Source: a bacterium (GTDB lineage Bacteria > Patescibacteriota > Andersenbacteria > UBA10190 > CAIZMI01). From it: a stretch of 40,998 nucleotides of DNA. The DNA lies in contig JAUSJG010000015.1 in NCBI GenBank assembly GCA_030647555.1, forward strand, positions 1-40,998, given 5' to 3'. The notes under the pieces are model-generated. The model made no database searches. It was not told the DNA's origin and saw nothing but the letters and a program-made list of their open reading frames with translations. This document shows, piece after piece, positions 12,240-26,558 of the stretch (position 1 is its first letter; the number at the start of each line of letters is the position of its first letter). The translations under genes were made by a program, and so were the position numbers.

Positions 12240-13346
12240 TCACGCACCCGGCATCGCAATGCCAAGCAGAACCGCCACACCGATCATCGCCGCATTATCC
12301 GTACAATATTTAATTGGTGGAACAACTAACGGAGTGTCCCCCAAGGCGACTTTCATTGTCTCACGCAATTTTGTATTAGCAGCCACACCACCGGCAATAA
12401 TTACTTCCTGCGCGCTTTCTTGCTGAACCGCTTTTAAAGTTTTTTGCACTAAAATATCCACAATTGCGTTTTGCGCACTCGCGGCCACGTCCGCTTTTTC
12501 TTGCAGTGATAATTTTTTGTCACGAATTGCGTAATACACTGCCGTTTTTAATCCCGAAAAACTAAAATCCAAATTATCCGTATTTAACATCGGACGTGGA
12601 AAATCAAAAGCTTTTTCGTTTCCCTGCAAGGCCAATTTTGCCAATTCCGGACCCCCCGGATATGGAAGTTCCAACAGGCGCGCAATTTTATCAAACGCCT
12701 CCCCCGCCGCGTCATCTCTCGTTTGACCTAAGAGTTTTAATTCCAATTTTTCGTTCAACCGAAAAAGTTGCGTATGCCCACCAGAAACTACCAAAACAAC
12801 CGCGGGAAATTGATGTGTAACAGACAAAACCCCTCCACGCCTCCCCTTGATAAGGGGAGGAATCGCGTCTCCCTCCCTTTTCCAAGGGAGGGCCGGGGCC
12901 GCCATCAGGCACTCCGAATCTCGAAGATTCGGAGTGGATTCACCATCATCGAGCAACCAACTCGCCGCGATATGCCCCGCAATATGATGAACCGAAACAA
13001 ACGGCTTTCCCCAAGCCACCGCAAGTGCGCGCCCCGCCGTCTCCCCCACCACCAATGCTGGCCGTAGCCCCGGTCGCGTGGTTGTTGCGATAGCATCAAT
13101 TTGTTCTTTAGTTATTCTCGCTTGTTTCACTGCCTCTGAAATTACAGGAACAATCGCCTCAACATGCGCTCGCGCCGCCACTTCCGGCACAACCCCGCCA
13201 GTAATTTTATGAATATCAATTTGCGAAGAAACGATGGACGACAAAACGACGATTGAATTTTGATTTCCGATTGATGATTGATGAAACTCGACAACCGCAG
13301 CCGCCGTTTCGTCGCACGATGTTTCAATTGCTAAGACACGTTGCAT
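12240..13346 (-). CDS. tsaD: tRNA N6-adenosine threonylcarbamoyltransferase TsaD, with two in-frame insertions
   Basis: A 368-residue Kae1/TsaD enzyme that transfers threonylcarbamoyl to A37 of ANN-decoding tRNAs. Visible: IETSCDETAAAVVE (7-20), SSQIDIHKITGGVVPEVAAR, the metal motif HIAGH (121-125), VVSGGHTQL (187-194), GEAFDKIARLL, DFSFSGLKTAV and ATN...LRE near the end. Two stretches are absent from ordinary TsaD: residues 21-33 (FHQSSIGNQNSIV, from GATTGA-type repeats) and about 133-178, between the HxxGH motif and the SGGHT strand, encoded by three successive perfect hairpins. The frame is preserved throughout. A TG-extended -10 box ends 7 bases before the ATG. Confidence 0.95.
   Translation of the reverse strand: MQRVLAIETSCDETAAAVVEFHQSSIGNQNSIVVLSSIVSSQIDIHKITGGVVPEVAARAHVEAIVPVISEAVKQARITKEQIDAIATTTRPGLRPALVVGETAGRALAVAWGKPFVSVHHIAGHIAASWLLDDGESTPNLRDSECLMAAPALPWKREGDAIPPLIKGRRGGVLSVTHQFPAVVLVVSGGHTQLFRLNEKLELKLLGQTRDDAAGEAFDKIARLLELPYPGGPELAKLALQGNEKAFDFPRPMLNTDNLDFSFSGLKTAVYYAIRDKKLSLQEKADVAASAQNAIVDILVQKTLKAVQQESAQEVIIAGGVAANTKLRETMKVALGDTPLVVPPIKYCTDNAAMIGVAVLLGIAMPGA
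12840..12936. repeat. Triple-hairpin palindromic element inside tsaD
   Basis: Three consecutive perfect hairpins: CCTCCCCTT-GAT-AAGGGGAGG (12840-12860), CCCTCCCTT-TTCC-AAGGGAGGG (12871-12892) and CACTCCGAATCT-CGA-AGATTCGGAGTG (12910-12936). Together they encode much of the extra segment (residues ~137-170), including PPLIKGRRGG. Confidence 0.9.
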
Positions 13347-13379: not shown

Positions 13380-13413
13380 ATTAATGTCCGACCTTTATAG
13401 GTCGGACATTAAT
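13380..13413. repeat. GGTCGGAC-type hairpin, copy 4, between tsaD and the response regulator gene
   Basis: Fifteen perfect pairs ATTAATGTCCGACCT / AGGTCGGACATTAAT around a TTAT loop. It shares the GGTCGGAC word with the hairpins at 327, 3520 and 3594. It may also end the signalling operon, but no T-run follows on the minus strand. Confidence 0.75.
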
Positions 13414-15491: not shown

Positions 15492-15671
15492 AAATTAACA
15501 AAAAGATTAATGTTTAACCGAATTATGCCATTTTTGTGCACTAATTACATTTTAGCACGATAAACCGCCTTTGTTCCACAAATCTTGCCCCAGAAACTTG
15601 CTTCTTGTTTGAAAATTATCTATTCTGTTATAGTTCTGATTTCCGATATCTGACTTCCGACCTCTTCGCAT

Positions 15672-15727
15672 GGCCCTATCGTCTAACGGCTAGGACACGA
15701 GACTTTCATTCTCGTAATCGGGGTTCG
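15672..15727 (+). pseudogene. Broken tRNA-Glu (5' two thirds) interrupted in the T-loop
   Basis: Bases 15672-15727 are identical to the first 56 bases of the intact tRNA-Glu at 15819, including the TTC anticodon, up to GGGGTTCG of the T arm. A two-hairpin insertion follows (15728-15765), then GATTCCC, after which the sequence diverges and the 3' acceptor strand is missing. It cannot fold as a tRNA. Confidence 0.85.
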
Positions 15728-15765
15728 CCCGCCAACACGGCGGGCGCCCGCTGAAATAGCGGGCG
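15728..15765. repeat. Double-hairpin palindromic insertion in the tRNA-Glu copy
   Basis: CCCGCC-AACAC-GGCGGG (15728-15744) followed by CGCCCGCT-GAAAT-AGCGGGCG (15745-15765). It sits exactly between TTCG and ATTCC of the tRNA T-loop sequence. The G at 15765 may belong to either the repeat or the tRNA. Confidence 0.8.
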
Positions 15766-15818
15766 ATTCCCAAAGATGCACATTGATATTATAAACAGAA
15801 GAAGAAATATCCAACCAT

Positions 15819-15890
15819 GGCCCTATCGTCTAACGGCTAGGACACGAGACTTTCATTCTCGTAATCGGGGTTCGATTCCCCGTGGGGCTA
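15819..15890 (+). tRNA. tRNA-Glu (anticodon TTC)
   Basis: A 72-base cloverleaf: acceptor GGCCCTA / TGGGGCT, D arm with CTAACGGCTAGG, anticodon stem ACGAG/CTCGT around ACTTTCATT (TTC anticodon), T arm CGGGG-TTCGATT-CCCCG, discriminator A. CCA is not encoded. A terminator follows at 15893. Confidence 0.95.
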
Positions 15891-15892
15891 CA

Positions 15893-18357: not shown

Positions 18358-19458
18358 TCACGGTGCCACGCACGTACGCGACATAATATTACCCGTCCCT
18401 TGATCAATAGCGTTTACCACGGTGATTGAATCTGTTGCGTTGACGACTAGATTACCATCAACATCTAGCGGATTTACCTGGTTCTGCCACACTGCTCCCG
18501 TTTTAGTAATTGTCCGTGGAACACCGTCCAAATAGGCTTTTACTAAATTATCATCATCCGCCGTAAGTTTATTATCACCATTCACGTCCAAATATGGTTG
18601 TGGACAGGCTAAATCAAGACCACAAGTTTTTGGCGCGATATCACCGGCCCCATATAAATTGATTGCGTTCACAACAAGAGCTGAATCCATCGCCTCTACG
18701 ATATTGTTATTGTTCACATCTACTGGATTTAATTGGTTCTGCCACACTGCTCCCGTTTTAGTAATTGTCCGTGGAACACCGTCCAAATAGGCTTTTACTA
18801 AATTATCATCATCCGCCGTAAGTTTATTATCACCATTTACGTCAAGATATGACGATGGACATGGAAGATTAGCCCCTAAAACAGGAGGAGTCGGCGTGGC
18901 GGTTGACGTGGCAACTGGGGTGGCGGACGCTACAACTGGTGTAGGCGTAGGCGCACTATTCGTGCTCGAATTCGAACTGCCATAGCCTTTTTCAGGTTTC
19001 TCTCCTCCACCATCGGCAATAATCTCTGCCTTATTCACCAATAACGCCTTTTTGCCGACAACGACCTGTTTGCCATTACTATCTCTTCCGGTAATCTTGA
19101 TATACGCTTTTCCCAACACGTAATTGGCGGGTAACTGAAAATTCATTGTTTTATCCAGGACTTTGTAAGGAATCGGCCTACAAACAGTTATGAGTTTCAC
19201 GAGAGAACAAACCTCAATTTTATACACCGTTACACCTTTTACTGCCGGTAACGGCAAAGTTATCATTTCACCCTGTTTTACCGCCATACGCGGTGAATTT
19301 GCCTGCAAGACCAATGCCCCAAGATAATCGCTGAAAAACACGACAAAAACCAAAACTAGTGCCGCACCGATCCCCGCACCGACGGCATAAAAAACCTTCT
19401 TGATTAAAGTCTTATTTATCGTCGACCCACTGTCATTGGAAATATTATTCATTTTCAT
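18358..19458 (-). CDS. Membrane-anchored surface protein with two dockerin-like repeats
   Basis: A 366-residue protein. One membrane segment (about 16-45) and an Ala/Thr/Pro-rich linker (PTPTPVVASATPVATSTATPTPP) place the C-terminal half outside the cell. The first extracytoplasmic domain (about 50-150) looks beta-rich. Two dockerin type I-like modules follow, each beginning YLDVNGDNKLTADDDN and with a second calcium-loop motif (DVNNNNIVEAMDS, DVDGNLVVNATDS). Between the modules about 115 bases are almost identical (18479-18595 and 18731-18847). Dockerins bind cohesins; no cohesin is recognisable here. The promoter is TTTACA-17-TATAAT (19483-19511). Confidence 0.85.
   Translation of the reverse strand: MKMNNISNDSGSTINKTLIKKVFYAVGAGIGAALVLVFVVFFSDYLGALVLQANSPRMAVKQGEMITLPLPAVKGVTVYKIEVCSLVKLITVCRPIPYKVLDKTMNFQLPANYVLGKAYIKITGRDSNGKQVVVGKKALLVNKAEIIADGGGEKPEKGYGSSNSSTNSAPTPTPVVASATPVATSTATPTPPVLGANLPCPSSYLDVNGDNKLTADDDNLVKAYLDGVPRTITKTGAVWQNQLNPVDVNNNNIVEAMDSALVVNAINLYGAGDIAPKTCGLDLACPQPYLDVNGDNKLTADDDNLVKAYLDGVPRTITKTGAVWQNQVNPLDVDGNLVVNATDSITVVNAIDQGTGNIMSRTCVAP
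18479..18595. repeat. Direct repeat within the dockerin gene (copy 1; copy 2 at 18731-18847)
   Basis: Over 100 bases are near-identical between the two stretches, from the GGTTCTGCCACACTG words to the ACCATT(C/T)ACGTC words. It encodes YLDVNGDNKLTADDDN plus AYLDGVPRTITKTGAVWQNQ in each dockerin unit. The near-identity points to a recent duplication or gene conversion. Confidence 0.9.
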
Positions 19459-21111: not shown

Positions 21112-22539
21112 TTAGCGACCCGTGTATGGTAACGGAACATAAGGACCATATGGTAGTGGTGGCGTTGGTGTTGCTGGATTATTAGAACCATAAGGCAACG
21201 GTGGCGTTGGTGGAACATACGGACCATAAGGTAACGGTAGAGTTGACGGCACATAAGGACCGTATGGTACCGGCGGTGTTGGCGGAACAACATAATTGTA
21301 AGACATCGCCAACGAAGTCCACGTGCCCACAGGACTCTCACTGTCCACCGTTGTTGTTGCCCAACTACCCGAGGCATTTGAAGCAAATTCCAATGTTCTC
21401 TTTACCTCATCATAATAACTCACATACAAATTATTTTTATCATCAATCGCTAATGAGTTATATTTCCCAACTTTTCCTTGACCTATTGTCGTTAATGACT
21501 GCCATCTTCCGGAAACCATACTCAAACATTTTAACTGATAATTAACAATACTTGCACCACCGGTAAAACAAACGTATGGGATATTATTAACATCAAGCGC
21601 TAACGACGTATTAAAACCAACAATACCAATACCGGCTGTCGGTCCTGAATCCACCAAAGAGCCCACCCATTTACCGGAAACATTATTAATATATTTCGGT
21701 TTATTTTTACCGTAATAGCTTATATGTACTTTTCCAAGTGCGTCAGTTTTGACAGAAACACCGAAACCGGAATAACTTTCTCTATCCAGAATGCTGGTAA
21801 CCCAAACTCCACTTGAGTTTGTCGCGTATCTTAATGAACCAATTCTACCGCCACTAAGAAATTGGTATCCAACATGCGCTTTGACATTTTTGTCCAAAGC
21901 CAAGGAAATATATCGCCCCGGAACGTCAAGAGTAGAAACTCCTTTATCCACAACACTCATTACCCAACTGCCGGAAGCATTAGTCGCAAATTTAAGATCT
22001 TTATTGGTATTGTCCGCGTAGGCAATATAGACCTTATTATATTCATCCAACGCTATCGATGGATACCAACCGACGTTGCCAACACTATCAACAACAGTCG
22101 TTTCCCACGATCCCGAGACAGAAGCATTCGTAGCGTATTTAAGATTACTATCTGACGCGTCGTAATAAGCAATATGCATTTTGCCATTTTTGTCAACAAC
22201 CAATGACGTATCTTGACCAACTTTTCCTTCAGAATCCACGCTCGCCAATGCCCAGTTTCCGCCGATATTTGAGGCAAATTTCAAATCGAAATTTTTTGCA
22301 TCATAATAAGCAATATTTACCACGGGAACCTTCACGGCGGCGGCACTGGGTCGGGGTACGGGCGTTGATGCTGGTTTAGAACTACTACCCTTGAGTAGCG
22401 TTGAAGTCTTAAGATAACCGCTAAACGCGTACGAAACCATGGCAATACTTATTACAAACAGCAAAACCACGCCACCCACCACCAGTGTCTTTTTTTGCGT
22501 AGTCTGCCCGTCGGTTGCCAACCAGGAAGATATCGACAT
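21112..22539 (-). CDS. Anchored beta-propeller-like repeat protein with Pro-Tyr-rich tail
   Basis: A 475-residue protein with one membrane segment near residues 19-42 and a Ser/Pro linker, so mostly extracellular. Residues ~73-415 contain about seven repeats of roughly 48 residues, each with the pattern ...SLA(L/V)D..(G/N)K.(H/Y)I(A/S)YYD....LK(F/Y)ATN.SG.W...(V/I)VD, as in beta-propeller or sialidase-like blades. The last ~60 residues are PPTPPLPYGPYVP repeats ending in LPYTGR. The end looks like an LPXTG sorting motif but has no following hydrophobic segment. A terminator begins 16 bases after the stop, so the tail is not truncated by a frameshift nearby. The ligand is unknown. Confidence 0.8.
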   Translation of the reverse strand: MSISSWLATDGQTTQKKTLVVGGVVLLFVISIAMVSYAFSGYLKTSTLLKGSSSKPASTPVPRPSAAAVKVPVVNIAYYDAKNFDLKFASNIGGNWALASVDSEGKVGQDTSLVVDKNGKMHIAYYDASDSNLKYATNASVSGSWETTVVDSVGNVGWYPSIALDEYNKVYIAYADNTNKDLKFATNASGSWVMSVVDKGVSTLDVPGRYISLALDKNVKAHVGYQFLSGGRIGSLRYATNSSGVWVTSILDRESYSGFGVSVKTDALGKVHISYYGKNKPKYINNVSGKWVGSLVDSGPTAGIGIVGFNTSLALDVNNIPYVCFTGGASIVNYQLKCLSMVSGRWQSLTTIGQGKVGKYNSLAIDDKNNLYVSYYDEVKRTLEFASNASGSWATTTVDSESPVGTWTSLAMSYNYVVPPTPPVPYGPYVPSTLPLPYGPYVPPTPPLPYGSNNPATPTPPLPYGPYVPLPYTGR

Positions 22540-26243: not shown

Positions 26244-26500
26244 GTGTATTTATCTTATCATTCAGTTTCCTTTATAATAACATGAATACTTCTCCAGACA
26301 AGTCAACTGATAATATGCTTAAAATTTATGTGCCGTTAATCATAACAATATTGATCATACCACTAATCCCCCTTCCAGCACCGCGTCCTACGGCCCGATT
26401 GATCGCGAAATAATCCGCATTCTATATTCGGAATATCTAACACCGGGATTAAGTGGAACCGAAATCACACGCTGTCTTTCGGGACAATAATTGCTTAATA

Positions 26501-26554
26501 CCTGTACCACATTCCAAGTGGACCAACCTTGGTCCACTTGGAATGTGGTACAGG
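26501..26554. repeat. 54-bp perfect palindrome (CCWGTACCAC family), copy 2
   Basis: Twenty-six perfect pairs with a CC centre. It differs from copy 1 (2358-2411) in the centre and by one T-A to A-T swap that keeps pairing. It lies 5 bases after the response regulator stop. The neighbouring gap 26244-26500 holds only a doubtful 43-residue plus-strand frame (26282-26413). Confidence 0.9.
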
Positions 26555-26558
26555 TTAA

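Follow-up and report, generated by a model that had tools for sequence, protein, structure and literature searches.

A mobile palindromic element probably inserted in frame in the single tsaD gene of a CPR-like bacterium

The single tsaD gene of the genome studied here (G000) most probably contains a palindromic mobile element akin to RPEs and intragenic REPs, a REP-dimer-like or RPE-like unit of ~80 bp, a reading that is given a probability of about 0.85. A unit with two GC-rich hairpins and complementary AATCCC-type tails would have entered tsaD, its right tail would have acquired a further, nested hairpin either beforehand or later, and the gene would be read straight through the insert. 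The protein would thereby gain a loop of 38 residues after the HxxGH helix and ahead of the SGGHT strand, presumably tolerated by the enzyme. The sequence of the element is new, and no such element seems to have been described in CPR; a literature search for palindromic elements or RAYTs in CPR returned nothing relevant, which is weak evidence of novelty because most subscription journals lay outside the search.

The gene product matches PF00814 with 291 bits (Pfam) and the equivalog TIGR03723 with 379.9 bits against a cut-off of 296.1 (NCBIfam). It is the only TsaD copy in the genome, which has one additional short TsaB-like match. Positions given below without a contig refer to the window, i.e. 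the whole 40,998-nucleotide stretch of DNA that was analysed (Table 1). A first-pass annotation of the window had reported three perfect hairpins at 12840-12936 inside an open tsaD with intact catalytic motifs; its coordinates proved exact, the 368 aa ORF is uninterrupted, and HxxGH and SGGHT are both present. Spacers of 10 and 17 nt lie between the three hairpins, so that 'back-to-back', as they had been called, is loose wording. Among 100 Markov-simulated windows of the same dinucleotide make-up, none contained a cluster of three such hairpins within 110 bp, and the window as a whole has nine against 0.76 expected from the simulation. Furthermore, the segment is predicted to fold as RNA with z = -4.9, and none of the shuffled sequences was as stable. 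A separate hairpin with 15-bp arms lies at 13380-13413, just upstream of the tsaD start and before the neighbouring response-regulator-like ORF.

Table 1. Positions of tsaD, its insert and the parts of the insert, with the uvrC loci of the two congeners
Feature	Position	Strand	Description
tsaD (tRNA N6-adenosine threonylcarbamoyltransferase)	12240..13346	-	368 aa; ORF list, Pfam, NCBIfam
In-frame insertion	12825..12938	-	114 bp, residues 137-174; edge uncertain by a few bases
Repeated element in tsaD	12828..12898	+	Left tail AACCCCTCCACG, hairpin 1, spacer AATCGCGTCT, hairpin 2, start of right tail CCGGGG
Hairpin 1	12840-12848/12852-12860		9 bp arms, loop 3; CCTCCCCTT-GAT-AAGGGGAGG; direct reading
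Hairpin 2	12871-12879/12884-12892		9 bp arms, loop 4; CCCTCCCTT-TTCC-AAGGGAGGG; direct reading
Hairpin 3	12910-12921/12925-12936		12 bp arms, loop 3; CACTCCGAATCT-CGA-AGATTCGGAGTG
Putative nested piece	12899..12934		Splits the right tail; holds most of hairpin 3 (12910-12936)
Right-tail end TGGATT	12935..12940	+	Terminal letters as in intact copies
uvrC loci (L183/L184)	G000:C13:63921-65957; G001:C31:8781-10796		

Comparison with close relatives delimits the insert. In TsaD of the congener G001 the flanks are 88% and 83% identical and the matching blocks directly abut, skipping residues 137-174, and residues ~137-174 are likewise skipped in G002, which belongs to another genus of the same family. 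Since these two relatives lack exactly this stretch, the tsaD segment is an in-frame insertion, and it measures 38 residues (114 bp) rather than the roughly 45 first estimated. The peptide, the absence of which from close relatives had been proposed as a check, is wholly missing in G001 and G002, and it was also absent from the displayed half of the rows of a 44-sequence TsaD alignment with other phyla. Peptides expected from translation of the insert include EGDAIPPLIK and DSECLMAAPALPWK. Most simply, the insertion dates after the species split from G001. The empty sites, together with the repeat family described below, point to a move of the element into tsaD at the DNA level.

The stretch at 12828-12898 recurs elsewhere in the genome at 78-91% identity. 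BLAST of a 120-bp segment against the genome recovered the two-hairpin part, or one hairpin, at more than 12 further places, and a covariance model scored the tsaD copy (12828-12904) at 78 bits. In aligned copies, the canonical unit of ~80 bp reads AATCCCTCCCCGCC-hairpin-AATCGCGACG-hairpin-GGCGGGGGTGGATT, in which both tails are complementary, and half-elements are found singly as well as in inverted pairs. Intact copies have an uninterrupted right tail, GCGGGGGTGGATT, whereas in tsaD GGGCCGGGG is followed by 36 bp, which hold most of hairpin 3, and only after these by TGGATT. Because alignment with the intact copies reveals this split, hairpin 3 appears to be nested in the right tail and separate from the repeated unit. 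Hairpin 3 was not found elsewhere in the genome when up to 3 mismatches were allowed, so the tsaD copy is not simply one member of a uniform family. Nested hairpins of other kinds occur at comparable places: a uvrC copy carries AACGTCCAGCGGACGTT in its tail, and several intergenic copies have a nested hairpin in a hairpin arm or tail. The initial description of a triple element thus holds for hairpins 1 and 2, which form the repeated unit, but not for the nested and genome-unique hairpin 3.

The proposed search for further copies was productive, as BLAST and the covariance model found the two-hairpin element many times, with ~46 distinct covariance-model copies in this genome at E <= 0.01 (both strands merged). 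The congener G001 has a similar copy number and there are many matches in G004, G005 and G007 of the same order, these counts being approximate because matches were listed per strand; matches below ~25 bits may include unrelated hairpin pairs. No covariance-model match was obtained in G003, G006, G008 or G009, also of this order. Across the phylum the element is present in 37 of 287 genomes (E <= 1e-4) and its spread is patchy. A control search of 499 kb from 80 other genomes (80 loci) gave nothing better than E = 0.075, there was no match in phages, plasmids or viral contigs, and Rfam returned only a chance miRNA match far below threshold.

Within the preferred reading, mobilisation by the genome's own RAYT or IS200-type TnpA, which would make the element a REP proper, is doubtful. 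The genome encodes both a RAYT-like Y1 transposase (L109), albeit below the family model's curated cut-off, and an IS200-type TnpA (L108), and of the four genomes of the order that gave no Y1 match, three (G006, G008 and G009) also lack the element. However, the fourth, G007, has the element and no Y1 match, while G002, G003, G010, G011 and G012 have Y1 genes and few or no element copies, so that across the order the correlation between Y1 gene and element is only loose. The RAYT-like gene (G000:C7; L109:1230-2007) has its own palindromes on both sides in a REPtron-like arrangement, but that palindrome, CCACCTACGAGGTGG, belongs to a different family from the tsaD element. Other RAYT loci have a similar layout (G004, L209) or one long palindrome (G001, L212), with different palindromes each time, and the element flanks the RAYT gene at none of the three loci; in G004 a copy lies ~0.7 kb from the RAYT but inside folC. 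Furthermore, the element lacks the GTAG tag, no transposase could be tied to it and no full-length transposon matching it was found.

Most copies are intergenic. Four of the 46 are genic (one in tsaD, one in cca and two in uvrC), all in frame, against ~40 of 46 expected from the ~88% coding content of the window (P < 1e-24, assuming independent random insertion). The in-frame copy in cca, which encodes the CCA-adding enzyme, has a counterpart at the same place in G001 with the frame kept, and the site is empty in G003, G008 and G009. The uvrC gene holds in-frame copies at G000:C13:65407-65488 and 64306-64386; G001 has both of them, and these sites are empty in G002 and other genera. The former amounts to 150 bp in both congeners with a diverged middle, indicating that the frame has been kept. 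Shared descent is less certain for cca than for uvrC because the G001 cca copy is apparently in the opposite orientation to the gene. A third in-frame insert in uvrC of G000 belongs to another palindromic repeat family, the TCATTGCGAG...GAAGCAATC type. In another genus, folC of G004 (L136:939-2372) has an in-frame copy together with a second short palindrome; the predicted start of this gene overlaps the end of a RAYT gene (2320-2973). The cca gene of G007 (L174) carries three different palindromes in frame within an open frame of 598 residues. A match in a glycosyltransferase frame (L164, 21.9 bits) was rejected as a genic copy, since it has another hairpin and is close to where the open frame begins.

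At the peptide level, tsaD and uvrC use one and the same frame for the first half of the element, giving STPALxWKxEG, and tsaD and cca do so for the second half, giving PPxxKGRRGG. Without its nested piece the tsaD element is open in five of six frames, and the consensus in three of six, so it is permissive rather than universally open. Low dN/dS between the congeners outside the inserts (0.03 for cca, 0.07 for uvrC and ~0.09 for tsaD, the last value also covering time that preceded the insertion) indicates that all three genes are under purifying selection. In an AlphaFold2 model of TsaD, mean pLDDT is 88 over the whole chain and above 90 for most of the core, and falls below 50 at residues 135-161, in the segment joining the HxxGH helix (120-129) to the next strand (181-186). 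The best structural matches of the model are TsaD-TsaB complexes. As had been anticipated when structure modelling was first suggested, the insert is thus predicted to be a low-confidence, disordered loop on a retained TsaD core. An insert of 114 bp, a multiple of three with no stop in frame, argues for straight read-through, and translated TsaD would accordingly include the loop. Most frames of the element being open, and loops being where it lands, would explain its tolerance, and the TsaD loop itself is probably neutral.

Bypassing elements, such as mitochondrial byp elements, are known to be of this type, with GC-rich hairpins inserted into coding sequence. The insert could therefore be present in the DNA and absent from the protein, through translational bypassing of the hairpins or removal at the RNA level, and the strong predicted RNA fold of the tsaD segment would suit such a process. 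This is very unlikely, however, as the copies examined (tsaD, cca in two species, two uvrC sites in two species, and folC) are all stop-free and in frame. The different palindromes in cca of G007 also keep the frame, which bypassed elements need not do.

There is little chance that an assembly chimera or contamination placed a common hairpin repeat in tsaD. Although this is a draft assembly of 31 contigs and repeats provoke misassembly, the gene is otherwise intact and keeps its frame exactly across the insert, completeness is 97% and contamination 0.5%, and comparable in-frame copies are seen in assemblies made independently. An old lineage-specific TsaD loop of 38 residues, with DNA palindromic by chance and no mobile element, would accord with the variable length of the loop that connects the HxxGH helix to the SGGHT strand, where TsaD of L051 has a long, unrelated and non-palindromic insert, but this has next to no probability and is refuted by the intergenic copies, since the same DNA occurs ~46 times in the genome, mostly outside genes, and the congener lacks the insert.

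The window contains several other repeats. A broken second tRNA-Glu at 15669-15772 shares 59 identical nt with the intact tRNA-Glu at 15819-15891; it apparently has a two-hairpin palindrome of ~38 bp in the T loop (GGGGTTCG, CCCGCCAACACGGCGGGCGCCCGCTGAAATAGCGGGC, GATTCCC), and the acceptor end is lost thereafter. Near-identical perfect palindromes of 56 bp (27-bp arms, 2-nt loop) lie at 2357-2412 and 26500-26555 and are not of the tsaD-element family. Direct repeats lie within 18407-18861 and 21134-21284: two 200-bp copies, 82% alike at a spacing of 255, and a 36-42-bp unit present four times.

The assignment of the host as CPR-like, also made in the first-pass annotation, fits the small genomes (0.8-1.4 Mb in the order) and the relatives, which make up a phylum with many genomes of comparably small size, but the TsaD tree does not confirm it. 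In that tree the family forms its own clade, weakly placed beside Planctomycetota and apart from the few named CPR sequences included. It is tentatively proposed that CPR may own a widespread, frame-compatible palindromic family that repeatedly adds loops to the single-copy enzymes encoded by tsaD, cca, uvrC and folC, via a mobilising enzyme yet to be found. If true, this would be a way of gaining new protein segments, separate from that in Rickettsia, in enzymes of tRNA processing, folate metabolism and DNA repair. The present case brings palindromes that invade proteins into a lineage whose genomes are very small and whose essential genes are single copy. Empty and filled sites form datable pairs, with tsaD filled in one species only and uvrC in both congeners, which makes the question of how palindromic DNA becomes protein directly testable. 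Disordered peptides of the PPLxKGxRGG type in such proteins can be derived from repeats and should not be taken for conserved domains.

Among known systems, MITEs resemble the present element in being short non-coding repeats with complementary ends. Its tails, AATCCCTCC...GGTGGATT, are complementary terminal inverted repeats, and when the tsaD copy is folded as RNA an outer stem forms between GGCCCC and GGGGUU. It differs from MITEs in that no matching full-length transposon was found. No target-site duplication was found either, at a tsaD empty site whose flanks are too diverged for one to be called. Intragenic REP dimers (GTAG- or CGTC-tagged) consist of hairpins of 8-9 bp, occur as singletons and inverted dimers and are mostly intergenic (PMC3733652), a pattern of lone and paired halves that the present element shares. 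It lacks the terminal tags of these REP superfamilies: GTAG stands at the hairpin foot of none of the 33 half-elements listed, and the element does not fit the pattern of CGTC-tagged REPs, with a terminal CGTC, a stem starting with AT residues and a CCA-type tail. The stems are CT-rich, and many copies have CGTC/GACG within the inner spacer, though at no constant distance. Some REPs lie inside genes, many of these for DNA repair (uvrA, uvrB, recB) and some for tRNA modification (truB), where dimers encode 20-30 aa, and the phyla listed include none of CPR (PMC3733652). The uvrC, cca and tsaD genes invaded here fit that gene list.

Rickettsia RPEs have been named the best-known case of intragenic palindromes (PMC3733652). 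RPE/WPE are short multicopy palindromes found between genes and in frame in housekeeping genes, at the same sites in orthologues (PMC3767692, PMC3733652). The element described here is set apart from them by its AATCCC tails, its CTCCCTTT/AAAGGGAG stems, its two- or three-hairpin architecture and its host lineage, whose relatives are bacteria with small genomes from a different phylum. The Rickettsia-like kind proposed at the outset is supported by the empty sites and the further copies, but the intragenic REP dimers of other phyla also belong to it. As with RPE/WPE, the element is multicopy (~46), lies between genes as well as in frame in housekeeping genes, and in tsaD, cca and uvrC forms in-frame insertions with insert-free orthologues.
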